Origin: Streptomonospora mangrovi
GTDB taxonomy: Bacteria; Actinomycetota; Actinomycetes; Streptosporangiales; Streptosporangiaceae
Assembly: GCF_027604915.1 (NCBI RefSeq)
Contig: NZ_JAJAQC010000005.1
Span: 62,001-126,000, forward strand
DNA length: 64,000 nt
Reading direction: 5' to 3'
Both the position numbers and the translations under genes were made by a program. Under the pieces are notes generated by a model. That model saw only the letters and a program-made list of their open reading frames with translations, was not told the origin of the DNA and searched no databases. Below are positions 19,465 to 39,286 of the stretch, one piece after another (the stretch's first letter is position 1; every line of letters begins with the position of its first letter).

Positions 19465-19559
19465 TTGTGCGGCGGGACGGCCGCGGCACCGGCCGCACAG
19501 CCGGTTCCTTCAATCTGGCGCGGCCGACCCGCCCGAGGGGCGGGGCACCGCGCGCCGGG

Positions 19560-21038
19560 CTACAGGCCCAGCGACTCGGTGGCCTGGCCGACCGCGTCGA
19601 GGCTCGGCGCCTCGCCGGCGGGGACCTCGGGCAGGCCCGACAGCTCGGGCGTCCGCGGCAGGTCCACGGGCACCTGCGACTCCACGGCCTGGCCGCCGGG
19701 GATCTCGGCGGGCACCTCGGCCTGGAGCGGCAGCACCTGGGTGGGGTCGGGCAGCTCGTTGCGCAGCGGCAGCGCGCCGGTGACCTGGCCGACGACGTCG
19801 CCGGGCGCGGGCAGGCCCGACTGCTCGGGGGCGGAGCGCTCGGCCGCGGGGGCCGCCTGCTCGTGGGAGGTGTGGTGCACCCCGCCGCCGGAGCCCTCGA
19901 CCACCGCGGCGCCGGTGTCCTCGGAGGCCGCGCCGGCCACGCCCAGCACCGCCGAGACGGCGTTGCCGGAGATGTTGACCGGGATGTCGCCGTCGACCAC
20001 GGCCTGGTTGCCGCCCAGGATCGACGCGTTGCCCGAGGTGGAGACGTCGTCGCCGCCCTTGTCCAGGACCGCCGCGCCGGTGTCGTGGGAGGCCGCGCCC
20101 GAGACGCCGCCGACGGCGCTCACCGCGTTGCCCGAGATGTTGACCGGGATGTCCAGGGGCACCACGAGCTGGTTGCCGCCCAGGATGGACCCGTTGCCCG
20201 AGGTGGAGACCTCGTCGCCGCCGTGGCCGGCGCGCTGGTGCACGACGTCGCCGCCGGCGGCGCGCTGGTGCAGGATCGGGCCGGCGTCGATGCTGCGCGA
20301 GCTGATGTGGATGGGCCGGCCGAGGTCGCTCAGGGAGTCCACCAGGAACCCGGCGCCGGGCGCGGGAGCGGTCTGGTGGGCGCGGTGGTAGCCGTCGGTG
20401 CGGGTGCCCTGCGCGCCGTGGCCGTGGTGGCCGTGGTGGCCGTGGCCGTTCTCCAGGATCAGCGCGCCGGTGTCCTCCGAGGCGGCGCCGGCCACGCCCG
20501 CGACGGCCGCGACGGCGTTGCCGGAGATGTTGACCGGGATGTCGCCGTCGATGACAGCCTGGTTGCCGCCCAGGATCGAGCCGTTCCCGCTGGTGGAGAC
20601 GTCGTCGCTCTGGTGGTGGCGGTGGCCGTGCTCCAGGACGGCCGCGCCGGTGTCGTCGGTGGCGGCGCCGGCGGTGCTCAGGACGGCCGCGACCGCGTTG
20701 CCGGAGACGTTGACCGGCACCTCGCCGTCGACGACGGCCTGGTTGCCGCCCAGGATCGACCCGTTGCCCGTGGTGCTGGGGCCCTCGGCGGCGTGGTCGT
20801 GGATGACCGCGCCGGTGTCGTCGGAGCGGGCGCCGGAGACGCCGCCGACCGCGCTCACCGCGTTGCCCGAGATGTTGACCGGCACGTCGAGGTTCCCGAC
20901 GAGCTGGTTGCCGCCGCCGATCGAGCCGTTGCCCGAGGTGGTCGCCTCGCTGTCGGCGAAGGAGACGCCGGTGCCGAAGGCGACGAACCCGGCCGCCAGC
21001 GCAGCGGCCGTGGCGGAGGTGCGAACCCACTTACGCAT
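19560..21038 (-). CDS. Five-repeat, cysteine-free, His-rich chaplin-like secreted protein
   Basis: Encodes 492 residues from ATG 21038, with GAAAGGA nine to fifteen bases upstream. A signal peptide (to about residue 29, ...GVSFADS) is followed by five chaplin-type repeats at about residues 34-77, 89-134, 148-195, 279-325 and 333-380, each with the pattern STSGNGSILGGNQ, then VPVNISGNAVSAV. Chaplins are amphipathic amyloid-forming proteins that coat aerial hyphae and spores. Unlike classical chaplins, the Cys residues are replaced by Ser (ISGNA) and I see no Cys in the protein. Linkers are His-rich (EHGHRHHQSDD; ENGHGHHGHHGHG), suggesting metal binding. The C-terminal 100 residues are Pro/Glu-rich with no sortase or membrane signal, so the protein is probably released or wall-associated. 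Confidence 0.85.
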   Translation of the reverse strand: MRKWVRTSATAAALAAGFVAFGTGVSFADSEATTSGNGSIGGGNQLVGNLDVPVNISGNAVSAVGGVSGARSDDTGAVIHDHAAEGPSTTGNGSILGGNQAVVDGEVPVNVSGNAVAAVLSTAGAATDDTGAAVLEHGHRHHQSDDVSTSGNGSILGGNQAVIDGDIPVNISGNAVAAVAGVAGAASEDTGALILENGHGHHGHHGHGAQGTRTDGYHRAHQTAPAPGAGFLVDSLSDLGRPIHISSRSIDAGPILHQRAAGGDVVHQRAGHGGDEVSTSGNGSILGGNQLVVPLDIPVNISGNAVSAVGGVSGAASHDTGAAVLDKGGDDVSTSGNASILGGNQAVVDGDIPVNISGNAVSAVLGVAGAASEDTGAAVVEGSGGGVHHTSHEQAAPAAERSAPEQSGLPAPGDVVGQVTGALPLRNELPDPTQVLPLQAEVPAEIPGGQAVESQVPVDLPRTPELSGLPEVPAGEAPSLDAVGQATESLGL

Positions 21039-21354: not shown

Positions 21355-22170
21355 TCAGGCCGAGCCGCGGGCCCGGCGGCGGACCAGCAGGAGGATCCCG
21401 GCGCCGGCCGCCACGGCGGCCAGGGCGCCGGCCACCAGCGGCAGCACGCCGGCGCCGGTGAGCGGGAGCGCGTCGCCGCCGGCGGCCGGGCCGCTCGCGG
21501 CGGGCGCGGCACCGTCGTCGTCGGCGGCGGGGTCGACGCGGGCGGCGGCGGGCGAGGCGGGGTCGGGGGCGCCGGCCTCCCCCTTGGCCTCGGGCGGCGC
21601 GCCGGCCGGACCGGACGGGCTGGGCGAGGGCGAGGCGGGCGAGTCCTGCGGGACCGTGGGGTCCTCGGGGCCGGCCTGCTCCTGGGCCGGGGGCTGCGCC
21701 GCGCCCGCCGCGCCGTCGGAGCATGAGGCGCCGGCGGTGCCCAGCACGGCCACCGCGTTGCCGCAGACGTTGACGGGGACGTCGCCGTCGACGACGGCCT
21801 GGTTGCCGCCCAGGATCGACCCGTTTCCGCTGGTGGTGGTGTCGCCGTCGCCCTCGTGGACGTGGGCTCCGGAGCCGGAGCCGTGGCCGGCGCCGCCGCC
21901 GGTGCCGTGGCCGCCGTAGCCGTCGGGGTGGCCGGACTGGCCGGAGCCGGTGGAGGCCCCGCCGCCCTGGCACTGGGCGCCGGCGGCGCCGAGCACGGCC
22001 ACCGCGTTGCCGCAGATGTTCACCGGCACGTCGGCGTCGGCGCCGAGCTGGTTTCCCCCTCCGATGGAGCCGTTGCCGCTCGTGGTGGTGTCGGCGTGGC
22101 TGATGGGAGCCACGGAGAAGAGGCCGGCCGCGATGAGGGCGGCGAACATCGTCATGCTTTTCCGGGACAT
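21355..22170 (-). CDS. Two-repeat chaplin with LPLTG sortase-anchoring signal
   Basis: Encodes 271 residues from ATG 22170, preceded by AAGGAT. A signal peptide (residues 1-27, ...PISHADT) is followed by two chaplin domains (about 29-68 and 111-151), each with SGNGSIxGGNQ and VPVNxCGNAVAVLG, and paired Cys at 53/67 and 136/150, which would form the disulfides known from chaplins. A Gly/His-rich linker joins the two domains. A long Pro/Ala/Ser spacer ends in the sorting signal LPLTG, a hydrophobic helix (VLPLVAGALAAVAAGAGILLLV) and a basic RRRARGSA tail. This is the layout of the long, sortase-anchored chaplins (ChpA-C type). No sortase gene is in the window. Confidence 0.9.
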   Translation of the reverse strand: MSRKSMTMFAALIAAGLFSVAPISHADTTTSGNGSIGGGNQLGADADVPVNICGNAVAVLGAAGAQCQGGGASTGSGQSGHPDGYGGHGTGGGAGHGSGSGAHVHEGDGDTTTSGNGSILGGNQAVVDGDVPVNVCGNAVAVLGTAGASCSDGAAGAAQPPAQEQAGPEDPTVPQDSPASPSPSPSGPAGAPPEAKGEAGAPDPASPAAARVDPAADDDGAAPAASGPAAGGDALPLTGAGVLPLVAGALAAVAAGAGILLLVRRRARGSA

Positions 22171-25403: not shown

Positions 25404-25488
25404 GTCCGGGTGGCGGAATAGGTAGACGCGCTAGCTTGAGGTGCTAGTGCCCGTTAAGGGCATGGGGGTTCAAGTCCCCCCTCGGACA
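25404..25488 (+). tRNA. tRNA-Leu (anticodon GAG)
   Basis: The 85-base sequence forms a type II tRNA: acceptor GTCCGGG/CTCGGAC, D-arm, anticodon stem CTAGC/GCTAG with loop TTGAGGT (anticodon GAG, codons CUC/CUU), a long variable arm GTGCCCGTTAAGGGCAT, and T-arm GGGGG/CCCCC with loop TTCAAGT. Upstream TATGGT at about 25363 may be its -10. Confidence 0.95.
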
Positions 25489-25494
25489 CCGTCT

Positions 25495-25523: not shown

Positions 25524-25588
25524 TTCGCGTTTCAGGACGGCCGAGTGGCCCGGGCCCCCTCTTCCGGCCGAGGTCCACCCGCCGCGCA

Positions 25589-25615
25589 GCGGTCCGGCAG
25601 ATCACCGCCTCGGCG
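25589..25615. repeat. Left copy of 27-bp direct repeat flanking the ABC/sigma operon
   Basis: Matches 31214-31240 in the same orientation with a single mismatch (core GGTCCGGCAGATCACC). The two copies bracket a 5.6-kb segment holding the whole seven-gene operon; the left copy lies 100 bases beyond tRNA-Leu. Confidence 0.75.
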
Positions 25616-25728: not shown

Positions 25729-26595
25729 TCACGTCGGGTGGATGTCCCGCATCAGGGCGGCGTAGCCGTCCTCCAGGGTGGCGGCGACGGGGACCGCGCC
25801 CGGGGGCGGCTCGTCGGCGACCACCCGGTAGCGCATGCCCTCGGGGGTCGCGGCGGCGTTGGTGACCGCCGCTCCGGTGGGCTGGGGACCGTCGGTGTCG
25901 ACAAGGTAGGTCCGGTCTTGGGCGTAAGCGGTGAGCCCGGATGTGGCGCCTGTGTAGACCACGCGGCCCGCCGCCAGTACGGCGACCCGAGGACAGGTCT
26001 GCGCCACGTCGTCCAGGACGTGTGTCGACAGCACCACGGTGCACCGCTCCCCCAACCCGGCGAGCAGCGAGCGGAACCGCATGCGCTCCTCCGGGTCCAG
26101 TCCGGCGGTGGGCTCGTCCACGATCACCAGCCGGGGATCACCCAGCAGAGCCTGGGCGATCCCCACCCGGCGCCGCATACCGCCGGAGAAGCCGCCGAGA
26201 CGCAGATCGGCGCTGTCGGCCAGCCCGACCCGGTCGAGCAGGCGGGCCACGTCCGCGCGACGGGTCCGCGCGTCGTCGACGCCCTTGAGGAGGGCGATGT
26301 AGTCGAGGAACTCGCGGGCGCTGAGATCCGGGTACAGGTCGAGGTGCTGCGGGAGGTAGCCGAGGACCCGTCTGGTGAAAGCGCGTCCGGCGCGGGTGCG
26401 GAGATCGTGCCCGCCCACGACGAGGGCGCCCGACGACGGCCGCAGCACTCCCGCGAGCAGGCGCATGAGCGTGGTCTTGCCGGCCCCGTTCGGGCCGAGC
26501 AGGCCGGTCATGCCGGCGCCGAACTCCAGGTCCACCGCGTCCAGCACCGTGCGGCGGCCGAAGGTCTTGGTCAGACCGGTGATGGCGACGTCCAT
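25729..26595 (-). CDS. ABC transporter ATPase (last gene of the sigma/ABC operon)
   Basis: Encodes 288 residues from ATG 26595, with GAGGTGA overlapping the stop of the previous gene. Walker A GPNGAGKTT, Q-loop LGYLPQHLD, signature FSGGMRRRVGIAQ, Walker B LVIVDEPTAGLD and the switch His in VVLSTHVLD are intact, so it should hydrolyse ATP. The C-terminal 70 residues form an extra domain (DTDGPQPTGAAVTNAAATPE) of the bacitracin/multidrug exporter type. With the membrane proteins encoded just upstream it would make an exporter. Substrate unknown. It is the last of seven tightly packed genes, 6 bases after the permease. Confidence 0.9.
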   Translation of the reverse strand: MDVAITGLTKTFGRRTVLDAVDLEFGAGMTGLLGPNGAGKTTLMRLLAGVLRPSSGALVVGGHDLRTRAGRAFTRRVLGYLPQHLDLYPDLSAREFLDYIALLKGVDDARTRRADVARLLDRVGLADSADLRLGGFSGGMRRRVGIAQALLGDPRLVIVDEPTAGLDPEERMRFRSLLAGLGERCTVVLSTHVLDDVAQTCPRVAVLAAGRVVYTGATSGLTAYAQDRTYLVDTDGPQPTGAAVTNAAATPEGMRYRVVADEPPPGAVPVAATLEDGYAALMRDIHPT

Positions 26596-26601
26596 CCCGG
26601 G

Positions 26602-27387
26602 TCACCTCTTTCCCATCATGATCAGGCGCGCTCCGCCGATGAGCAGAGCGGTGGAAAGCAGTACACACGCGAGGTTCGCCAGCCCGGTCACCGTGCCGTC
26701 GGCGGCCGGGCTGAGCCAGCCGACCTGGCCGTTCCCCGCCCAGGACGGCGTGGTTCCGAACCACGCCTGGGCCGGGTACTCACCGGAGGGGACCAGGAGG
26801 GTGCCGACCGGCGTGGGCGCCCACAGCAGCCGGGGGTTCCACGCCACCGCCCAGAACCAGGCGGGCACCACGAAAGCCCGGGCCAGCGGTGCCGGGAGGA
26901 CGAGTGCCAGCACCCCGGCGAGGGCGGTGATCCACGCGCATGCCGGGAGGAGTACGACCAGGAAGGCGAGCGCCGTCCACGGCAGCGCCGCGGCATCGCC
27001 GGTGCGGACAGCGGCGGCCGCCCCGAGGACCGCGGTCACCGGCAGGACGGGGAGGAGCGCCACGGCGAGCCCGCCGGCGAGGACCGCGCCTATCCGCGCC
27101 GCGCCCCGCAGCGGCACGCTGTCGAGGAGGTCGCCCAGACCGGCCGCCGTCCCGCGGCGCAGGCGGTCGGCCAGCACCACGCCCACCCCGACCGGGACGA
27201 CGAGGGTCAACGCCTCGGCCACCGCTCCGGCGTTGAGCCGGGCGGACTCCGCGCCGTCCAGGCGCCCCATGCCGACGAGCAGGGCCAGCGCGGCCATAGG
27301 GACCATGCCGATCCACACGCCCCGGCCGCGCGCCGCCATACGGGCCTCGTAGCACGCGACCGCCAGCAGCGCCGCCACGCCCTTCAC
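26602..27387 (-). CDS. ABC-2 type permease
   Basis: Encodes 261 residues from GTG 27387, which overlaps the preceding stop by four bases (GTGA), with GAGGAGGGG just before. About six hydrophobic segments are seen (including VWIGMVPMAALALLVG, LVVPVGVGVVLAD, VLAGGLAVALLPVLPVT, FLVVLLPACAWITALAG, NLACVLLSTALLIGGA). The first cytoplasmic loop contains YEARMAARGRGVW, typical of ABC-2 permeases. It would pair with the ATPase encoded just downstream. The neighbours suggest an exporter complex of several different membrane chains. Substrate unknown. Confidence 0.78.
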   Translation of the reverse strand: MKGVAALLAVACYEARMAARGRGVWIGMVPMAALALLVGMGRLDGAESARLNAGAVAEALTLVVPVGVGVVLADRLRRGTAAGLGDLLDSVPLRGAARIGAVLAGGLAVALLPVLPVTAVLGAAAAVRTGDAAALPWTALAFLVVLLPACAWITALAGVLALVLPAPLARAFVVPAWFWAVAWNPRLLWAPTPVGTLLVPSGEYPAQAWFGTTPSWAGNGQVGWLSPAADGTVTGLANLACVLLSTALLIGGARLIMMGKR

Positions 27388-27980
27388 CGCCCCTCCTCGA
27401 CAACGCGCTCGGGTACCGCCCGCGGACCCAGCGCCGTCGCGATCAGCACCACCCCGAGCGCGGCGGCCGCCGGCCGGGCGACGGCGGGGGGCACGTGGAC
27501 CGCCCAGAACAGGGCGTAGCCGAGCCACACCGCGACCGCCGCCCCCGACGCCGCCGCGGGCGAGTGCCGGCGGGCCCACACCCGCAGCGCGACCCCGCTC
27601 AGCAGCGCGGCAGGACACAGCGCGGCGGCCGCGGAGGCCGCGGCCTCAGGCGATCCCGCGCCGAGGGCGAGCGCCGCACCCACGAGCGCGGCCGCGACCA
27701 CGGCCAGCCGGCGCGCCAGCAGCACCGGGAAGGGCACCGGGAGGGACAGGTGGAGTTCGAGCGCGCGGGTCCGCGCGAGTACGGCGATGACCGCCAGGGA
27801 CGCGAGCCCCGCCAGCCCCGTCGCCGCGGCGGCGGCCAGGGCCGGCTGCGCCGCCGGTGGCGAGCCGGCGGTCACCGCGCCCCCGGCGAGCCCGGCGGCG
27901 AGCAGGGCCGGGGCGGCCATGCCGCAGTGGCGCGCCTCGTACCGCAGCAGCGCCGGCGGGACCAAGGTGCGCGCGCTCAT
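27384..27980 (-). CDS. Six-helix membrane protein of the ABC operon
   Basis: Encodes 198 residues from ATG 27980, overlapping the stop of the anti-sigma/permease gene by four bases (ATGA), so translation is coupled. It has about six hydrophobic segments in a short chain (ALLAAGLAGGAVTA, ATGLAGLASLAVIAVLA, LAVVAAALVGAALALGAG, ASAAAALCPAALLSGVAL, AVAVWLGYALFWAVHV, AALGVVLIATALG). After the first segment, the loop carries the RTRALELHLSLPVP motif, which recalls the cytoplasmic loop of ABC-2 permeases. It is smaller than standard permeases and may be a half-unit that pairs with the products on either side. Confidence 0.7.
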   Translation of the reverse strand: MSARTLVPPALLRYEARHCGMAAPALLAAGLAGGAVTAGSPPAAQPALAAAAATGLAGLASLAVIAVLARTRALELHLSLPVPFPVLLARRLAVVAAALVGAALALGAGSPEAAASAAAALCPAALLSGVALRVWARRHSPAAASGAAVAVWLGYALFWAVHVPPAVARPAAAALGVVLIATALGPRAVPERVVEEGR

Positions 27981-28876
27981 ACACCGCCCCGGAGGACGCG
28001 CGCCGGATACCCGGTCAGCAGCGCGGCGCACCCGATCAGCAGGAGGGACGCCGCCAGCGTTCCGGCGTTCGTCGTCCACACCGCGGCGAGCACGGCGGTG
28101 AACCGCCCCGGGACGGGCAGGACGCCCCCGACGGCCACCACCGCCCCGATGACCCACCCGCATCCTCCCAGCACCGCCCCCGCCGCCGGGGACTGCCACA
28201 CCGCGCCGAACGCGGCGAGTGCGGCCGTGAGCAGGGCCGGCCCCAGCCACGACGCGACAAGTTGGGGGGCGTCCGCAGCGCCCTCCGCCACCCGGCCGAC
28301 GGCGGCCGTGAGCACCAGGGCGGCGGCCAGGTCGACGGCCACGACGAGCGCCAGCCGGCACAGCCACACCGCGACGGGCGGCACCGGCAGGGAGTGGAGC
28401 AGTTCGCTGCGGGGATCGCGGCGCGGTTCGCACACGGCGAGGACCCCGGCCGTCAGGAGCAGGGTGACGCCGGGCCCCAGCAGCGGCTCCGCGATCGGCT
28501 CCGCGCGCCAGGCCGCCGCCAGCAGCAGGACGAAGCCCAAGGCGGTCAGCGGCCACAGCGAGCGGGGCACCAGACGCGCCTGCCGCCACACCAGCGCGGC
28601 GGTCAGCCGCCAGGACGCCGAAGCGCTCCACGCCGCGACGGGAGCCGGATCGGCGGCGGGGCGGTGCAGCTCGGGCAGGACGAGGGCGTCGAAGGAGGGG
28701 ACCGCCGCGGGGGCGTTCTCCGCGTCGAGTGCGGCCGCCGCACCGCGCAGCGCCGACGCCGCCGCCACCCGCCTCCGGCACCGCGCGCACCGCACGAGGT
28801 GCCGCGCCGCACGGGCGTCCGGGGGTGCGCCGGGGCGTCCGACCGCCATGATCCGCTCGTCATCGAGGTGTCCCAT
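27977..28876 (-). CDS. Zinc anti-sigma (ZAS) domain fused to a six-span ABC-2-like membrane protein
   Basis: Encodes 299 residues from ATG 28876, which overlaps the sigma gene's end by 17 bases. Residues 1-50 carry the ZAS pattern H-x3-C-x2-C (HLVRCARC) with an upstream helix (DDERIMAVG), the class that binds and silences ECF sigma factors through a zinc site. After about residue 90 there are six hydrophobic segments, with a DPRSELLHSLPVPP loop like that in its operon neighbours, so this is an ABC-2-type membrane domain rather than the usual single anchor. The gene order sigma then anti-sigma and the overlap fit a partner pair. Such a fusion could couple transport state to release of sigma. 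Inference only. Confidence 0.75.
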   Translation of the reverse strand: MGHLDDERIMAVGRPGAPPDARAARHLVRCARCRRRVAAASALRGAAAALDAENAPAAVPSFDALVLPELHRPAADPAPVAAWSASASWRLTAALVWRQARLVPRSLWPLTALGFVLLLAAAWRAEPIAEPLLGPGVTLLLTAGVLAVCEPRRDPRSELLHSLPVPPVAVWLCRLALVVAVDLAAALVLTAAVGRVAEGAADAPQLVASWLGPALLTAALAAFGAVWQSPAAGAVLGGCGWVIGAVVAVGGVLPVPGRFTAVLAAVWTTNAGTLAASLLLIGCAALLTGYPARVLRGGV

Positions 28877-29486
28877 GCCCCTCCTCCTCTTCCTCCGTCA
28901 GCAGCCTGATCAGGCGGGCACGGGCGTGCGCCATCCTGCTCTTGACGGTGCCGACCGGCACACCGAGCACATCGGCGATGTCGCGGTAGGGCAGTTCGTC
29001 GACGAGCGCGAGCCCGAGCACCTCGCGCGAGCGCGCCGGTAGCCGGCGAACGGCGGCCAGGATCGCATCGTGCCCGATCGTCGCGAGGACCTGCTCCTCG
29101 ACGTCGACGCCGCCGTCCACGGGCTCCGGCGCGTCGTCGAGGTCGACGGTCGGGCGGGCGACGCGGCGCAGCCGGTCGTGGGCACGACGCCGGGTGATTC
29201 CCAGCAGCCAGACCCGCACGGCGGACTCCCCCCGGTAGCCGGCCGCCGACCGCCAGGCCGCCAGCCACGCCTCCTGGAGGATCTCCTCGGCCGTGCCGGT
29301 GTCGGAGGTGAGCCGGCGCAGGAGCCGCAGCATGGCCGCGGCGTGGCGCCCGTACAGGACGCGCAGGGCGTGCTCGTCCCCGTCGGCGACACGGGCGAGC
29401 AGCACCCGGTCGTCGGCTTCCACCGCGGACTCCTCCCTTCGACGGTGCCGTGTCAGCGTGCCGCGTGCGGTGGTGTGGGCGGTCAT
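28860..29486 (-). CDS. ECF sigma factor
   Basis: Encodes 208 residues from ATG 29486; a later in-frame GTG (VEADDRVLLARV) could also start it. Region 2 is ALRVLYGRHAAAMLRLLRRL then TAEEILQEAWLAAWR, the core-binding and -10-recognition helices. Region 4 is ILAAVRRLPARSREVLGLAL then YRDIADVLGVPVGTVKSRMA, the helix-turn-helix that reads the -35. The linker is acidic and lacks extra domains, so it belongs to a small ECF type. It lies 14 bases after the upstream ATPase and overlaps the gene for its probable anti-sigma factor, all in one operon. It is expected to control its own operon in answer to a membrane or transport signal. Confidence 0.9.
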   Translation of the reverse strand: MTAHTTARGTLTRHRRREESAVEADDRVLLARVADGDEHALRVLYGRHAAAMLRLLRRLTSDTGTAEEILQEAWLAAWRSAAGYRGESAVRVWLLGITRRRAHDRLRRVARPTVDLDDAPEPVDGGVDVEEQVLATIGHDAILAAVRRLPARSREVLGLALVDELPYRDIADVLGVPVGTVKSRMAHARARLIRLLTEEEEEGHGTPR

Positions 29487-29500
29487 CGGTGTCCGCCTGT

Positions 29501-30199
29501 TCAGCCGCGGTCCAGCAGCGCGAAGAACCCCTTCTCCAGGTCACCGTCCCAAGCGAGACCGTCCAGGGGGCCGGCGAAGCGCACGGTGCCTCCGACGAGG
29601 ACGGTGACCTCGTCGCAGGTCTGCGCGATCTGGTCGAGGTGGTGGCTGGAGACCAGCACCGCCACCCCGTCGGCGGCGAGCCGGCGCAGCAGCGCCCTCA
29701 TGTCGCGCATGCCCACCGGGTCGAGGCCGTTGGTGGGCTCGTCCAGGACGAGCAGCCGGGGCCGCGCCAGCAGGGTGATGGCGATCCCCAGGCGCCACCG
29801 CATTCCCAGCGAGTATGCCGACACCCGGCGGTCGGCGTGGTCGGCCATGCCGACGTCCGCCAGCAGGCGGGGGATCAGGGCCGGGTCGGCACCGCGCAGG
29901 CGGGCGTGCAGGCGCAGGTGTTCGACGGCGGTGTAGCGGGACCACAGCCCGGGTTGGGTGACCAGCGCTCCGACGTCGCGCAGGACGCCGCGGGTGAAGG
30001 GGGCTCCGAACAGCTCCAGGGAGCCCGAGTCGGGGCGCGACAGCCCGGTGATGGTCTTGAGCAGCGTGGTCTTACCGGCCCCGTTGGGCCCGAGGAGGCC
30101 GTGGACGCGGCCCGTCTCCACCCGCAGATCCACTCCGGCCAGGGCCTGGGTGCGACCCAGCCGCTTGGTGAGGCCGCTGACGCGTACGGCGGTGCCCAT
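29501..30199 (-). CDS. ABC transporter ATPase (lantibiotic-immunity-like)
   Basis: Encodes 232 residues from ATG 30199, abutting the permease stop without a gap. Walker A GPNGAGKTT, Walker B LLVLDEPTNGLDP and switch His VLVSSHHLD are present. The signature is YSLGMRWRLGIA instead of LSGGQ, the form found in lantibiotic self-protection exporters (MutF/SpaF/EpiF type). With the upstream permease it is expected to export or shield against a peptide or hydrophobic compound. No lantibiotic precursor or modification gene is nearby, so the substrate remains open. Confidence 0.88.
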   Translation of the reverse strand: MGTAVRVSGLTKRLGRTQALAGVDLRVETGRVHGLLGPNGAGKTTLLKTITGLSRPDSGSLELFGAPFTRGVLRDVGALVTQPGLWSRYTAVEHLRLHARLRGADPALIPRLLADVGMADHADRRVSAYSLGMRWRLGIAITLLARPRLLVLDEPTNGLDPVGMRDMRALLRRLAADGVAVLVSSHHLDQIAQTCDEVTVLVGGTVRFAGPLDGLAWDGDLEKGFFALLDRG

Positions 30200-31003
30200 T
30201 CACAGCTCCTTGCGGTTGACGTGGCGGGCGCCGATGGCCAGCAGTACCGCGGTCGACGCCAGGGAGAGAGCGACGGCGAGGGGGATCACCCCGGTGTCGG
30301 CCAGCGGGTCGCCGGGGGGCAGGGGGACCCCGTTGGCGCGGATCCCGGCGAGGGGCACGACCACCGTCATGGGCCAGCCCATCGGCACCGCCCACCAGAC
30401 GCTCTTGTCGGCGAGCAGGGCACCGAACATCATCCCGGCGACGCCGACGCACACCGCCGGGGCGAAGCCCCACACCTCGGCGACGAGCACGCACAGCGCC
30501 ACCGACGCCGATGCGGAGGCCCAGGGGACCAGGACCGCCAGCGCGGTCGGCCCGACGGTGTGCGGCCCCTCCAGAGCCACCCCGATCGGGGCGAGCAGCG
30601 CCAGCAGCAGGACTGCCTGGGCGAGGCCGAGTACGGTCAGGGCGGCGAACCTGCCGACCAGGTAGCGGTGCCGGGGCACCGCGTATCCGTAGAGGACGGC
30701 CCGCGCGCTCTCGTCCTGGCGCACCGCCATCGACGCGTACAGCGCGGCCGCCATGGGCAAAAGGACGCCCCAGAACATCACGACGACCCGGAACCAGGTG
30801 CTCCACACCTGCCCCGCCTGCCCCTCAGGCGAGGCGACCGCGATCACGCCGAGCGGGAGCACCAGGGCGAACGGGAGCCCCACGGTGAACCAGGCCGGGA
30901 AGCCGCGTCGCAACCGGGCGAGTTCGGTTGCGGCGACCGCGGCAAGCGACGGATCGTCGCGACGCGGGCGCCGCGCCCGAGCGGAGGGTGGAACGGCCGT
31001 CAT
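30200..31003 (-). CDS. ABC-2 permease (lantibiotic-immunity MutE/EpiE-like), first gene of operon
   Basis: Encodes 267 residues from ATG 31003, with GAGGAGAG seven bases upstream. A basic N terminus is followed by RRGFPAWFTVGLPFALVLPLG, then about six hydrophobic segments, including VVVMFWGVLLPMAAALYA and the MAVRQDESARAVLYGYAVPR cytoplasmic loop. The EELxxR-like loop and spacing resemble the immunity permeases MutE/EpiE. It is the first of seven genes that run to 25729 with overlaps or gaps under 15 bases, and pairs most directly with the ATPase gene that follows. Upstream 31004-31117 holds a possible ECF-type promoter. Confidence 0.82.
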   Translation of the reverse strand: MTAVPPSARARRPRRDDPSLAAVAATELARLRRGFPAWFTVGLPFALVLPLGVIAVASPEGQAGQVWSTWFRVVVMFWGVLLPMAAALYASMAVRQDESARAVLYGYAVPRHRYLVGRFAALTVLGLAQAVLLLALLAPIGVALEGPHTVGPTALAVLVPWASASASVALCVLVAEVWGFAPAVCVGVAGMMFGALLADKSVWWAVPMGWPMTVVVPLAGIRANGVPLPPGDPLADTGVIPLAVALSLASTAVLLAIGARHVNRKEL

Positions 31004-31041: not shown

Positions 31042-31071
31042 TACGTAGCGGTCGAGAGCCCGCCCGGTTCA
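31042..31071 (-). promoter_or_regulatory. Possible ECF-sigma-type promoter of the seven-gene operon
   Basis: On the minus strand TGAACC (31071-31066) is followed after 17 bases by CTACGT (31048-31043). This resembles the GAAC / CGT pattern of ECF promoters and would fit autoregulation by the operon's sigma factor. The match is short and unproven. Confidence 0.3.
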
Positions 31072-31117: not shown

Positions 31118-31210
31118 GTCCGGTCGGCCGGCCGGGGCCGCCGCATCGTGTGCGGCAGGTGCCGGCCGGGTGGGGGTTGCTGGGGGGCGGGGGTCAGCCG
31201 TTGTAGGGGG
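31118..31210. repeat. 93-bp duplicate of the 3' flank of the VOC gene (copy B)
   Basis: Matches 34844-34936 at about 94% (six differences in 93). In the other copy the segment spans the last 17 bases of a VOC protein gene and its downstream region; here only that tail remains, without a gene. The gap 31004-31357 otherwise holds no gene. Confidence 0.8.
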
Positions 31211-31213
31211 GCC

Positions 31214-31240
31214 GCGGTCCGGCAGATCACCACCTCGGCG
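31214..31240. repeat. Right copy of 27-bp direct repeat flanking the ABC/sigma operon
   Basis: Pairs with 25589-25615 (one mismatch, same orientation). It begins four bases after the 93-bp duplicated segment and 211 bases upstream of the first operon gene. Confidence 0.75.
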
Positions 31241-33565: not shown

Positions 33566-33793
33566 GGAGCGGCTTCCCGCCCGTGCCTCCACGCGAGTCA
33601 CGGCACATCGCCGAACCGGTGTCGGACGCCGGCATGGTCCCCCTACCCCCGACCTGGTGGCGAGCGCGGGAATGGCCTGCCCGGTCCGCTCTATGGCGAG
33701 CACGGCGGCTGTCGTCGGCCGCCGACGGCCGAGGCGATGCCGCGGGCCGGTGAGGCAGCTTCTCAGGCAGGGGTCCTCACCGGCACGCGCGGG

Positions 33794-35693: not shown

Positions 35694-36095
35694 GTGACGC
35701 GACTTATATGTGCGGATGAGACGACCTCGGGCGGGCGCGAGGCTGCGCTGGTGCTCGACCTGGCCGGGGAGCGCGTGAGTGTGCGCGAGGTGATCCGGCG
35801 GAGGGTGTTCCAGGAGGCCGCGGAGTACAACGCGCGCGCGTCCTCGGGGCCGTTTCGGGGGCTGGTGCGGCCCACCGAGGCCGAGGCGGTGCTGAACGGG
35901 CCGCGTGGGCCGGTGCATCCGCCGGTGCGGGTGGATCCCGAGGAGCAGTTCGCGGCCGCGGTGGCGGCGTTCTCCCGCAACGGGTTCCTCGTCCTGACCG
36001 GGGAGCGCCAGCTCACCGACCTGGACGAGGAGATCGAGCTGACCCCCGGCCTGGAGGTCACCTTCCTCAAGCTCGTCCCCCTGGTGGGTGGCTGA
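35694..36095 (+). CDS. Conserved-looking hypothetical protein coupled to DUF4132 gene
   Basis: Encodes 133 residues from GTG 35694 (MTRLICADETTSGGREAALV). The start choice rests on the -10 hexamer seven bases upstream and on overlap with the downstream ATG (stop-start TGATG). The chain has a REVIRRRVFQEAAEYN helix and a beta-rich C terminus ending DEEIELTPGLEVTFLKLVPLVGG. It seems soluble and cytoplasmic. No motif is known to me. The tight coupling to a large DUF4132 protein suggests that the two products act together. Confidence 0.7.
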   Translation: MTRLICADETTSGGREAALVLDLAGERVSVREVIRRRVFQEAAEYNARASSGPFRGLVRPTEAEAVLNGPRGPVHPPVRVDPEEQFAAAVAAFSRNGFLVLTGERQLTDLDEEIELTPGLEVTFLKLVPLVGG

Positions 36096-39000
36096 TGCCC
36101 GACTTCGACGCGTTCCACGACTTCGAGACCGCGCTGCTGGCCGCCGCCGAGGGCGGCGACCTCGACGCGGCCTGCGAGACGGTGGTGGCCGCCGACGACT
36201 TCCCGGGGGCGGTCCGGCGCATGCCCATGCTGCCCCTCGACCTGCGCCGGCGCATGGCCGGCGCCTGCGTGGAGCTGTACCGGGCGGCCGACGACCCCGG
36301 GCGGCGCGACCGGCTCCGCACCGTGCACGCCGCGCTGCTGGCCCGCCAGACCGACCTGCTGGACTCCGACGGGTTCGAGGCCGCCGTCCTGGCCGCCATG
36401 CACATCGGCCGCACCGCCGACGACGAGAAGCGGGCCGCGCTGGAGACCGCTTTGGCCTCCGGCGACGTCCCCCGCATGGCCGACCGCCTGCGCGCGTTCG
36501 AGCCCGAGTTCCGGCGCCGGCTAGCCGAGCACGTCCTGGTCCGGATGTGGGACACGGAGACGGATCCGGCCCGCCGCGAGGGCATCCTGTGGCTGCACAC
36601 CGTGCTGGCGCCCCGGCAGGGCCGCGTGGCGGGCGACTCCGCGAAGGCGCTGCTGGGCGAACTCGCCGCCCTCGGGTTCCCCGACGAGGCGATCGCGGCC
36701 CTCGGCACCGACTCCTCCCTTGAGGTGGCGGCCCGGCCCCTGGCCGAGCTGCCCCGCGACCTCCGGCGCCGCGTCGACCGGCGCTGCGCCGACCTGTACG
36801 CGGCGGCCCCCTCACCGGAGCGGCGCGAGGCGCTGGTGTGGCTGCGCGCGCTGGTGTCGGCGCGCCCGCTGGAGCAGTTGGACTACACCGACCTGGAGCC
36901 CATGCTGCGGGCCGCCGTCGAACGCGGTGACGCCGCCGCCGCGTGCGCCATGGTGCTCGGCGACCACGCCTATTCCAGCACGTCGGACAAGGTCGCCCGG
37001 CTGCCCCGCGAGACCGTGCTCCCGATCGTGGAGGAGTGCGCCGCCCGGTTCGCCGGCACCCCCGCCGCCCAGCGCCTGAAGGTGCTGCGGCTGCACGCGC
37101 GGCTGTCGCTGGCGCTGGACCGCCCCGACGACCTGCTGGCCGCCCCGCGCCAGGAGGCCCTGGCCGGCGCCGACCCCGGCGACCTGGTGCAGATCCTGAC
37201 CTACCTGGAGATCGCCTGGCTGGAGCTGGCCTCCGGCCGCGACATCCCGCTCGGGTTCGGCGCCCGCGTCCGGCACGAGAGCCACGGCAACCACCCCTTC
37301 GAGGCCGAGACCTCCCGCAAGATCACCCGGCTGCTCGCGGAGCGCCACCCCCCGCTCAACGCGGGCGAGCCCTGGACCGACCTCGCCCTCGCCGAACTCG
37401 CCGACCTGCCCTCCGCCTGGACCGGACTCGTCCGCCACGCCGCCACGGCCGTCAAGGCCAAACCCGACGCCGCCTGGCGGAAGAAGGCCGGGCCGCTGCT
37501 GGCCGGGGTCGACGAGTCCGAGTTCCGCGAACGCGTCCTGGGCTGGTTGGCGCTGGTGGGCGGCGGCCGCATGCCCCACCAGTTGGACAACTACAACTAC
37601 GACGCCGCCCGCGGCCTGGTGTGGCTGCTGTCCCTGCTGCCCGAGCACCCCCGGACCGTGCGCGGCCTGGGCGCCCTGCTGGAGCGGGCGCTGCGCCGGA
37701 TGCCGGGTGTGGGGCCGGGCATGCCCAAGCTCGCCGGCGCCTGCGCCAACGCGCTGAGCGCGATGGAGGGCGAGGCCGCCCTGGCGGAGCTGGCCCGGCT
37801 CACCACCCGGGTGACCTACAAGTCCACCCTCAAGCTGCTGGAGGCCGGGCTGGCCGCCCGCGCCCAGGCGCTCGGGCTGGGCCGCGACGAGATCGAGGAG
37901 CTGGCCGTGCCCGCCTACGGCCTCACCGAGGTCGGCCGGCGGGTCGAGGACTTCGGCGCGGCGCGGGCAGAACTCCTGGTCGACGGCCGCCGGGCCGAGC
38001 TGCGTTGGTACAGCGCCGCCGGCGCCGAGGTGAAGTCGGTGCCGGCCGCCGTGCGGCGCGACCACCCCGAGGCGCTGAAGGAGCTGAAGGCCCAGGCCAA
38101 GGACGCCGCCGCGATGCTGACGGCGGTCGCCAGGCGCCTGGACCGCGGTTTCCTCACCGACCGCTCGTGGCCGGCGGCGGCCTGGCGCGAGCGCTACCTC
38201 GACCACCCCCTCGTCGGCACGCTGGCCCGCCGCCTCATCTGGACGGTCGACGGCACCTCCTTCGCCTGCCTCGACGGCGCGCCGCGCGACCTGGCGGGCG
38301 ATCCCGTGGAGGTGCGGGGCGAGGTCCGGCTGTGGCACCCGGCGGGCCGCCCGGTCGAGGAGGTGCTGGCCTGGCGCGAGCGGCTGGAGGAGCACCGGAT
38401 CACCCAGCCGGTCAAGCAGGCCCACCGCGAGGTCTACCTGCTCACCGACGCCGAGCGGCGCACCCGCACCTACTCCAACCGGTTCGCCGGGCACATCCTG
38501 CGCCAGTACCCGTTCCGCTCGCTGGCCGCCGAGCGCGGCTGGCGCGACCCCCGGCTGCGCATCTGCCACCACGACCACGCCTACCCGCCCGCCATGCGCG
38601 ACCTGCCCGAGTGGGGCATCCGCGCGGAGTACTGGGTGCGCGGCGACGGCGCGCTCGACACCGCCCTGACCACCGACTCCGGCGCCTACGCGCTGCTGGC
38701 CGCCGACCAGGTGCGGTTCTACCCCGCCGACGCGCCGGAGCACGAGTTCAGCACCATGGGCGGCGGCGGGTTCGCCGCGCCCTCGGGCGAGCCGGGTCCG
38801 CTGCCGCTGGAGGAGGTCCCGCCCCGGGTGTTCAGCGAGGTCATGCGCGACGTCGACCTGTTCGTCGGCGTGACCAGCGTGGGCAACGACCCCACCTGGC
38901 AGGACGGCGGCCCCGGCGGGCGCCACCGGGAGTACTGGTCGGCCTACAGCTTCGGCGAGCTGAGCGAGACCGCCCGCACCCGCCACGACCTGCTGGTGCG

Positions 39001-39286
39001 GCTGCTGCCCCGCCTGGCCGTGGGCGCCCGCTGCCGGGTCGAGGGCCGGTTCCTGCACGTCGCGGGCGACCTGCACACCTACCGGATCCACCTGGGCTCC
39101 GGCAACATCTTGATGGACCCCGGCGACCGCTACCTGTGCGTCGTCCCCGACAGCACGCCCGCCGCGCCCGACACCTACCTGCCGTTCGACGGCGACCGGA
39201 TGCTGTCGCTCATCCTCAGCAAGGCGCTGCTGCTGGCCGACGACACCAAGATCACCGATCCCGCGATCCTCAGCCAACTCAAGTAG
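36095..39286 (+). CDS. Large DUF4132-type protein
   Basis: Encodes 1063 residues from ATG 36095, overlapping the stop of the gene before it by one base. Most of residues 1-640 form repeating helical pairs rich in Leu, Ala and Arg (ELAALGFPDEAIAAL, LPRDLRRRVDRRCADLY, LPAEx segments), resembling HEAT-like scaffolds. The C-terminal part holds the DUF4132 signature: RRLIWTVDG, AWRERLEEHRITQPVKQAHREVYL, YSNRFAGHILRQYPFRSLA, GDRYLCVVP. Members of this family have been linked only loosely to regulation and have no known activity. A long hairpin ends the transcript. Confidence 0.85.
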   Translation: MPDFDAFHDFETALLAAAEGGDLDAACETVVAADDFPGAVRRMPMLPLDLRRRMAGACVELYRAADDPGRRDRLRTVHAALLARQTDLLDSDGFEAAVLAAMHIGRTADDEKRAALETALASGDVPRMADRLRAFEPEFRRRLAEHVLVRMWDTETDPARREGILWLHTVLAPRQGRVAGDSAKALLGELAALGFPDEAIAALGTDSSLEVAARPLAELPRDLRRRVDRRCADLYAAAPSPERREALVWLRALVSARPLEQLDYTDLEPMLRAAVERGDAAAACAMVLGDHAYSSTSDKVARLPRETVLPIVEECAARFAGTPAAQRLKVLRLHARLSLALDRPDDLLAAPRQEALAGADPGDLVQILTYLEIAWLELASGRDIPLGFGARVRHESHGNHPFEAETSRKITRLLAERHPPLNAGEPWTDLALAELADLPSAWTGLVRHAATAVKAKPDAAWRKKAGPLLAGVDESEFRERVLGWLALVGGGRMPHQLDNYNYDAARGLVWLLSLLPEHPRTVRGLGALLERALRRMPGVGPGMPKLAGACANALSAMEGEAALAELARLTTRVTYKSTLKLLEAGLAARAQALGLGRDEIEELAVPAYGLTEVGRRVEDFGAARAELLVDGRRAELRWYSAAGAEVKSVPAAVRRDHPEALKELKAQAKDAAAMLTAVARRLDRGFLTDRSWPAAAWRERYLDHPLVGTLARRLIWTVDGTSFACLDGAPRDLAGDPVEVRGEVRLWHPAGRPVEEVLAWRERLEEHRITQPVKQAHREVYLLTDAERRTRTYSNRFAGHILRQYPFRSLAAERGWRDPRLRICHHDHAYPPAMRDLPEWGIRAEYWVRGDGALDTALTTDSGAYALLAADQVRFYPADAPEHEFSTMGGGGFAAPSGEPGPLPLEEVPPRVFSEVMRDVDLFVGVTSVGNDPTWQDGGPGGRHREYWSAYSFGELSETARTRHDLLVRLLPRLAVGARCRVEGRFLHVAGDLHTYRIHLGSGNILMDPGDRYLCVVPDSTPAAPDTYLPFDGDRMLSLILSKALLLADDTKITDPAILSQLK

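Follow-up and report, generated by a model that had tools for sequence, protein, structure and literature searches.

The window analysed here is a 64,000-nucleotide stretch of the genome of Streptomonospora mangrovi, a high-G+C actinomycete (contig NZ_JAJAQC010000005.1, positions 62,001 to 126,000). At 25729..31003 it carries seven minus-strand genes, which encode a permease, an ATPase, an extracytoplasmic function (ECF) sigma factor, a protein that fuses a zinc anti-sigma (ZAS) domain to six transmembrane (TM) spans, two further membrane proteins and a second ATPase. This operon is probably a self-regulated, stand-alone lantibiotic-response and immunity module of the MibX/MibW type, without biosynthetic genes at the locus. 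MibX and MibW are an ECF sigma factor and its membrane anti-sigma factor, and the pair is released by a lantibiotic or by the resulting stress (PMC4973701). The interpretation draws on features observed directly, namely the gene order, the zinc-type domain, an ABC-2 fold (by model), a single promoter and relatives in lantibiotic clusters. The promoter and the genes are as follows:

31045..31070, minus strand: MibX-type promoter GAACC-N16-GCTAC, an exact match 41 nt 5' of the first start codon
30200..31003, minus strand: ABC permease, MutE/EpiE lantibiotic-immunity-like (MibE-like), 267 aa, TIGR03732, 6 hydrophobic peaks
29501..30199, minus strand: ABC ATPase, lantibiotic-protection-like (MibF-like), 232 aa, TIGR03740, ABC_tran E 1e-27
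28860..29423, minus strand: ECF sigma factor, MibX-like, 187 aa from GTG 29423, Sigma70_r2 and r4_2; the open reading frame reaches ATG 29486
27977..28876, minus strand: anti-sigma/ABC-2 fusion, 299 aa, with the ZAS domain at residues 1-53, a fourth helix at 62-71 and the ABC-2 domain at 82-295
27384..27980, minus strand: small membrane protein TM5, 198 aa, 7 hydrophobic peaks, no Pfam or NCBIfam family at a useful E
26602..27387, minus strand: membrane protein TM6, 261 aa, GTG start, no Pfam or NCBIfam family
25729..26595, minus strand: second ABC ATPase, AtpB, 288 aa, ABC_tran E 3e-30, with Walker A/B, FSGGM signature and H-loop

Operon structure and promoter

The coordinates and strand of the seven genes agree with an earlier sequence-only reading of this DNA. 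The sigma and anti-sigma genes overlap by 17 bases (28860-28876), ATGA and GTGA overlaps lie at 27977-27980 and 27384-27387, the permease stop directly abuts the first ATPase start, and AtpB is preceded by a 6-base gap. The overlaps are as that reading described, but not all gaps are below 15 bases as it had stated. The sigma gene probably starts at GTG 29423 rather than ATG 29486, because a GGAGG-type ribosome site and the GTG are conserved in the window and in the related loci L034 and L035; with this start the gap between ATPase and sigma genes is 77, not 14, bases.

The fusion protein has matches (E <= 0.001) in at least 50 of the 345 genomes of the order, its own included, many of them weak and to the membrane part only. 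This count and the class-wide count given below are lower bounds, with only the best five or six first-look candidates scored per genome. Loci were fetched from 40 of the 49 other matching genomes and compared for all seven proteins. A relative of the sigma factor is present in every one of the 40, and in L056, L061, L063, L071 and L072, where the fusion is too diverged for comparison, the frame after sigma encodes the same kind of protein. The window's gene order is retained in L034, in L036 (where the fusion gene and TM5 are about 1 kb apart) and, as far as the contig extends, in L035. Many Nocardiopsis-type loci have the sigma gene, the fusion gene and then directly an AtpB-like ATPase. A profile search of genome contigs with an 18-row alignment of fusion proteins found nine named loci, six of them from Nocardiopsis, and a single fusion-protein query in the same contig search found no relative. 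At L050:8076-9029 (minus strand, genome G026) the fusion gene extends over two frames, reflecting a frameshift or a sequencing error.

Both sigma regions, Sigma70_r2 and Sigma70_r4_2, are matched above cut-off by Pfam. In the sigma tree, the window protein falls in a 24-row clade with the sigma factors of the lantibiotic clusters L053 and L054 (support 100/99).

The consensus for MibX is GAACC-N15-GCTAC (PMC4973701). Across the 6.36 Mb genome there are 7 sites for this promoter, one of them at the window operon, compared with 57 for a reversed control pattern. The 41 loci (the 40 fetched and 14 kb of the window), 621 kb in all, contain 61 sites at a spacing of 15 or 16. As controls, 300 pairs of permuted half-sites gave 2.81 sites on average; the largest control count, 39, belongs to a one-base-shifted relative of the real motif and the next largest is 16. 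The spacing is sharply defined, with 33 sites at 15, 28 at 16, 4 at 14 and 0-2 at every other spacing from 8 to 24.

A site was counted for a gene if it fell in the interval that begins 350 nt upstream of the estimated start and ends 60 nt within the gene. Of 40 scored loci, 27 have one at sigma; of 24 scored permease genes 18 have one, and of 19 inner ATPase (AtpE) genes none. A site at sigma or permease is present in 34 of 41 loci, window included. The window, L034 and L036 have the sigma gene internal to an operon headed by the permease, with the site before the permease, and the -10 element and the bases that follow it are conserved in L034 and L036. Among five further loci that were not used to derive this rule, the four that come from another family, f19, carry one site ahead of sigma and a second one behind the fusion gene. 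Sigma-dependent induction of the operon, as proposed in the sequence-only reading, is thus predicted from a MibX-type promoter at the operon head. The regulon may consist of the window operon and little else, because the genome has only 7 sites and none is on a contig with LanB or LanC.

Transporter genes and lantibiotic clusters

The permease matches TIGR03732 (E 3e-27, 95.5 bits, below the curated 145.2) and the first ATPase matches TIGR03740 (E 2e-61, 207.4 bits, below the curated 309.75), in agreement with their earlier description as lantibiotic-immunity-like. At E <= 0.01 the permease sequence has no match among solved structures. TM5 is conserved at the same position in L034 and L035. 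For TM6, 12 sequences can be aligned (mean column identity 60%), and a relative of AtpB adjoins TM6 in most loci where TM6 was found; TM6 is the probable partner permease of AtpB.

The spacing of genes after the fusion was compared in the 17 loci with an intact ZAS. In 10 of them the start of an ATPase gene follows the fusion gene by no more than 45 nt. The ATPase is further off in L038 (169 nt) and L045 (670 nt) and there is none in L046; TM5 and TM6 intervene in the window, L034, L035 and L036, and TM6 in L050. In seven of the 10 loci with a close ATPase, 783-1034 nt separate the fusion gene from the start of the next permease, which has a promoter site of its own; this leaves little space for a further permease gene. 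The fusion-adjacent ATPases that were inspected in other loci keep Walker A/B and have an LSxG variant of the signature; the H-loop pattern was not found in the L039 ATPase.

LanB and LanC models were run on 30 of the 50 matching genomes, and each matches in 24. They lie within 10 kb of the module in only G146, G273 and G284, a count limited by the short contigs of G145, G123 and G015, and about 23-25 kb away in G005. In L053 and L054 (from G273 and G284), the sigma factor and a fusion-type protein stand beside a CTPGCTSPGGGS lantibiotic precursor, followed by LanB and LanC. The precursors, at L053:5797-5988 (minus strand) and within L054:10115-10336 (plus strand), have a core ending in ...CTPGCTSPGGGSFCSWCCC, which we take to be the ring pattern of microbisporicin and planosporicin, and are possibly undescribed microbisporicin-like lantibiotics. 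After sigma and the fusion in both loci comes a small frame with a promoter in front; by eye it reads as a MibR-like regulator with a helix-turn-helix end, and Pfam names nothing in it. Relatives of AtpB and TM6 are found further out in the same region, with a promoter site 0.7-0.8 kb upstream. These relatives within a microbisporicin-type cluster, together with the MutE/EpiE-like permease, bear out the link to peptide antibiotics that the sequence-only reading had suggested.

In L042 the sigma module adjoins LanC and a LanB fragment. Inspection of L042:11452-15343 by eye adds the frame of a LanD-like flavoprotein and the remnant of an ABC transporter, and the region looks like a decaying class I lanthipeptide cluster.

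The anti-sigma/ABC-2 fusion protein

The H-x3-C-x2-C motif of the fusion protein is HLVRCARC, at residues 26-33. The ChrR-like ligands H3, H26, C30 and C33 are invariant in 18 of 18 aligned sequences, a set selected for carrying the motif, which 19 of 41 loci lack. When 177,635 PDB sequences were ranked by the 18-row profile, ChrR (2q1z, E 0.0014; 2z2s, E 0.0016) and RsiW (5wuq, E 0.041) were the top three, and the profile alignment pairs the motif to ChrR. The ZAS domain proposed earlier is thus well supported, and it is predicted to bind and inhibit the neighbouring sigma factor. A profile check for zf-HC2 and ABC-2 (Pfam, E up to 1) found neither in the window protein, and found zf-HC2 in 5 and ABC2_membrane_3 in 3 of the 18 aligned sequences (best ABC2_membrane_3 E 1.3e-4). 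The 18-row profile matched at least 37 of 394 genomes of the class. The weaker of these matches reach no further than position 140, as is to be expected if this type of anti-sigma domain also occurs with other membrane parts.

Hydropathy and an AlphaFold2 model agree on the six membrane spans that the sequence-only reading had given to this protein. In the model, six long helices fall within residues 107-288 and the TM2-TM3 loop has a short helix at 155-159, as in ABC-2 coupling helices; the residues R153, P155, P167 and R174 are invariant across the membrane part and this loop. The membrane part is thus modelled as an ABC-2 domain fold, which is in keeping with the claimed fusion of an anti-sigma domain to an ABC-2-type membrane domain. 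No Foldseek match to it was obtained at E <= 0.001 and no Pfam or NCBIfam ABC-2 model scored above cut-off for the window protein. An origin of the membrane part by copying of a neighbouring permease was considered and rejected, as homology is unsupported (hhalign probability 0.2 for TM6 and 6.4 for TM5). The ABC-2 domains of NosY, PmtD and the ABCG family resemble the fusion in the connecting helix, the six membrane helices and the loop with a short helix; unlike them, it carries an N-terminal anti-sigma domain. With the class I zinc anti-sigma factors ChrR, RsrA and RsiW it has in common the N-terminal His, the H-x3-C-x2-C motif and the ZAS helices, whereas ChrR continues into a cupin and RsiW into a single membrane span in place of the ABC-2 domain.

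Across the 41 loci, the H-x3-C-x2-C motif is present in 22 fusion proteins and absent from 19 (counting L062, L069 and L065, whose N-termini are unresolved). The zinc-less loci split into two sigma clades, one of six loci including L053 and L054 (96/79) and one of thirteen (99/94). All four loci of the first clade with a resolved N-terminus keep a VPSY-type stretch that corresponds to VPSFDAL, conserved in helix 62-71. In the second clade, 10 of the 13 loci have a WPEL-like N-terminus, such as MNEWPELSGIRDGIPPPPGP. A promoter at sigma or permease is retained in 16 of the 19. Apparently the zinc core was lost twice while sigma and mostly its promoter were kept, although this is a by-eye reading of the midpoint-rooted sigma tree after relabelling and not a computed result. 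In that tree L056, L063 and L071 carry H-x3-C-x2-C though labelled 'other', and the row for L065 is weak, its sigma being partial and its branch long.

The sequence-only reading had taken homologues without zinc ligands as grounds for refuting the anti-sigma idea. Such homologues make up 19 of the 41 loci, and we do not judge the idea refuted, because the promoter is kept in 16 of the 19 and zinc-less class I anti-sigma domains are reported to be common (PMC7406223). The same coevolution study assigns helix 4 of class I anti-sigma domains to sigma region 2. Given the zinc-less relatives, zinc itself is unlikely to be the sensor.

Mechanism, alternatives and genomic setting

At rest, the ZAS domain and the following helix would hold sigma at the membrane. 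A lantibiotic, or the lipid II stress that it causes, would reach the ABC-2 part and change its conformation so that sigma is released, and free sigma would transcribe its own operon and so raise the level of the MibEF-like immunity transporter. A second transporter, formed by AtpB with TM5 and TM6 and perhaps the anti-sigma chain, would be raised as well. The response would be self-amplifying, and the ABC-2 fold adds the state of a transporter as a third possible trigger. Because there is no LanB or LanC on the contig, the trigger is more likely to be a peptide of foreign origin, or from another part of the genome, than a product of the locus.

Several points weigh against reading the operon as a lantibiotic-response module of the MibX/MibW type. 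The likeness to MibX/MibW comes from the promoter, the gene content and the L053/L054 cluster. We infer sigma sequestration, the trigger and resistance from the domains, promoter and linkage that were observed. The spacing of the window site is 16 rather than the published 15. The immunity NCBIfam matches are all below curated cut-offs. The window's 256-kb contig has no LanB or LanC, which makes a lantibiotic trigger indirect. The precursor clusters L053 and L054 have sites elsewhere in the cluster and none at sigma. No N15 or N16 site was found in L035 (where the contig ends), L048, L070 or L071, nor in L117, the fifth of the further loci, and L065 has a site but falls outside the 34 as its sigma is too partial to score.

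The operon could instead be a general cell-envelope-stress system of the Bacillus subtilis SigY type, responding to membrane damage and not to lantibiotics specifically. The SigY operon has a like overall plan of ECF sigma, anti-sigma and ABC transporter, and the SigY NCBIfam model, one of many ECF models to do so, matches the window sigma at E 7e-21, though far below cut-off (74.8 of 194 bits). The promoter, the MutE-like permease and the L053/L054 lantibiotic cluster all indicate the MibX group instead, and we consider a SigY-type role improbable. Still less probable is that the operon is what decay has left of a lantibiotic biosynthesis cluster, now without its biosynthetic genes and with little remaining function. 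The position of L042 beside LanC and a LanB fragment would fit such decay, as would that of the window operon in a variable region behind a tRNA gene. But all seven frames are open, all four zinc ligands are in place, as are the AtpB motifs, the promoter is an exact match, and L034 and L036 retain the seven genes in this order.

Within the preferred reading of a MibX/MibW-type module, the role of the membrane part can be taken further. We suggest tentatively that the anti-sigma factor could be a working TM subunit of an ABC exporter, whose conformational cycle (flux or substrate) would release sigma; the sigma, fusion and ATPase of Nocardiopsis-type loci would then form a complete transporter-switch, and the two zinc-core losses would leave a short sigma-tethering helix. 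The membrane part might, on the other hand, merely anchor the anti-sigma domain, its ABC-2 fold being a relic with no part in sensing or transport. The high variability of the zinc core and N-terminus among relatives points that way, as do the LSxG signature variant of fusion-adjacent ATPases in other loci and an ABC-2 part that, in the window protein, Pfam does not recognise and profile comparison does not relate to TM5 or TM6. Set against this are the invariant residues in the membrane part and in the TM2-TM3 loop with its modelled coupling-like helix, and the ATPase close behind the fusion gene in 10 of 17 loci, 7 of those 10 having little room for another permease. A mere anchor seems to us rather unlikely.

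The operon lies directly behind a tRNA-Leu(GAG) gene (25404-25490). DNA similarity to the window in all five same-genus genomes stops at 25489, one base before the end of this gene at 25490, and in four of the five no further similarity appears in the 5-12 kb fetched. In the fifth, G003, long collinear similarity returns at 33781; the intervening stretch holds different genes and matches the window only in short patches, one of them at 31119-31210. The stretch from the tRNA gene to 33781 is therefore a variable region or integration hotspot. A duplicated tRNA-Leu end, the mark of an integrated element, was not found in the window. Copies of a 30-base direct repeat, with 93% identity, stand on either side of the operon at 25586-25615 and 31211-31240. 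The 24-base core of the repeat, with one Y position, has two exact copies in the genome, both at the operon, and two more with 3 mismatches; in the fetched loci only 5-mismatch matches were seen, in L066 and in L051 (L022 covers the same place). This setting fits horizontal arrival of the operon without proving it. Elsewhere in the window, two genes at 19560-21038 and 21355-22170 have chaplin (ChpA-C) domains (Pfam 1e-13 and 1e-6), and a tRNA-Cys (anticodon aca) called by ARAGORN at 19528-19623 runs into the end of an opposite-strand chaplin-domain gene and is probably a false call. A 1063-aa protein with DUF4132 and DUF7737 is encoded at 36095-39286.

The sequence-only reading knew of no described system with this exact layout; that no such system is described is not supported, as MibX/MibW (PMC4973701) and PspX (PMC6001450) are in print. 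The microbisporicin system of Microbispora corallina resembles the window in its ECF sigma factor with a co-transcribed membrane anti-sigma factor, its promoter, its sigma-controlled MibEF, which has an immunity role, and a further transporter pair implicated in immunity (MibYZ/J), the window also having a second transporter set. Direct peptide binding and lipid II stress are both offered as the trigger for MibW, and GenBank HM536998 is named as the accession for MibX/MibW (PMC4973701). The differences are that microbisporicin has separate mibE, mibX and mibJ units, whereas the window genes apparently form one operon, with one promoter (spacing 16) and no LanB or LanC on the contig. The planosporicin system of Planomonospora has PspX with PspW. 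PspX is likewise an ECF sigma factor released by the lantibiotic itself (PMC6001450), and the likeness is by description; the window again differs in having apparently one operon and no LanB or LanC on its contig.

The fold of the window's anti-sigma factor can be set beside other membrane sensors. MibW is reportedly a membrane anti-sigma factor with several spans. In BceAB-BceRS modules a transporter subunit joins in peptide-antibiotic sensing and controls its own expression; the window operon has no histidine kinase, and its output would be an ECF sigma factor held by the transporter-like chain itself.

In the literature searched (titles and the starts of abstracts, with three founding microbisporicin and planosporicin papers outside its scope), no description was found of an anti-sigma/ABC transporter fusion or of a stand-alone Mib-type module. 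As far as that search reaches, what is new is that the module stands alone, that its anti-sigma factor is modelled with an ABC-2 fold, that fusion and one ATPase could make up a complete minimal transporter in some loci, and that the zinc core was apparently lost twice. The general principle is known from microbisporicin, and the window operon is ordinary in principle and new as a stand-alone variant. If the anti-sigma factor is an ABC-2 transporter domain, the release of MibX from MibW becomes testable as transporter biochemistry, and mutants in the coupling helix and Walker motifs should uncouple sensing. The compact and rare promoter offers a means of mining genomes for modules of lantibiotic sensing and immunity, whether or not biosynthesis genes accompany them.

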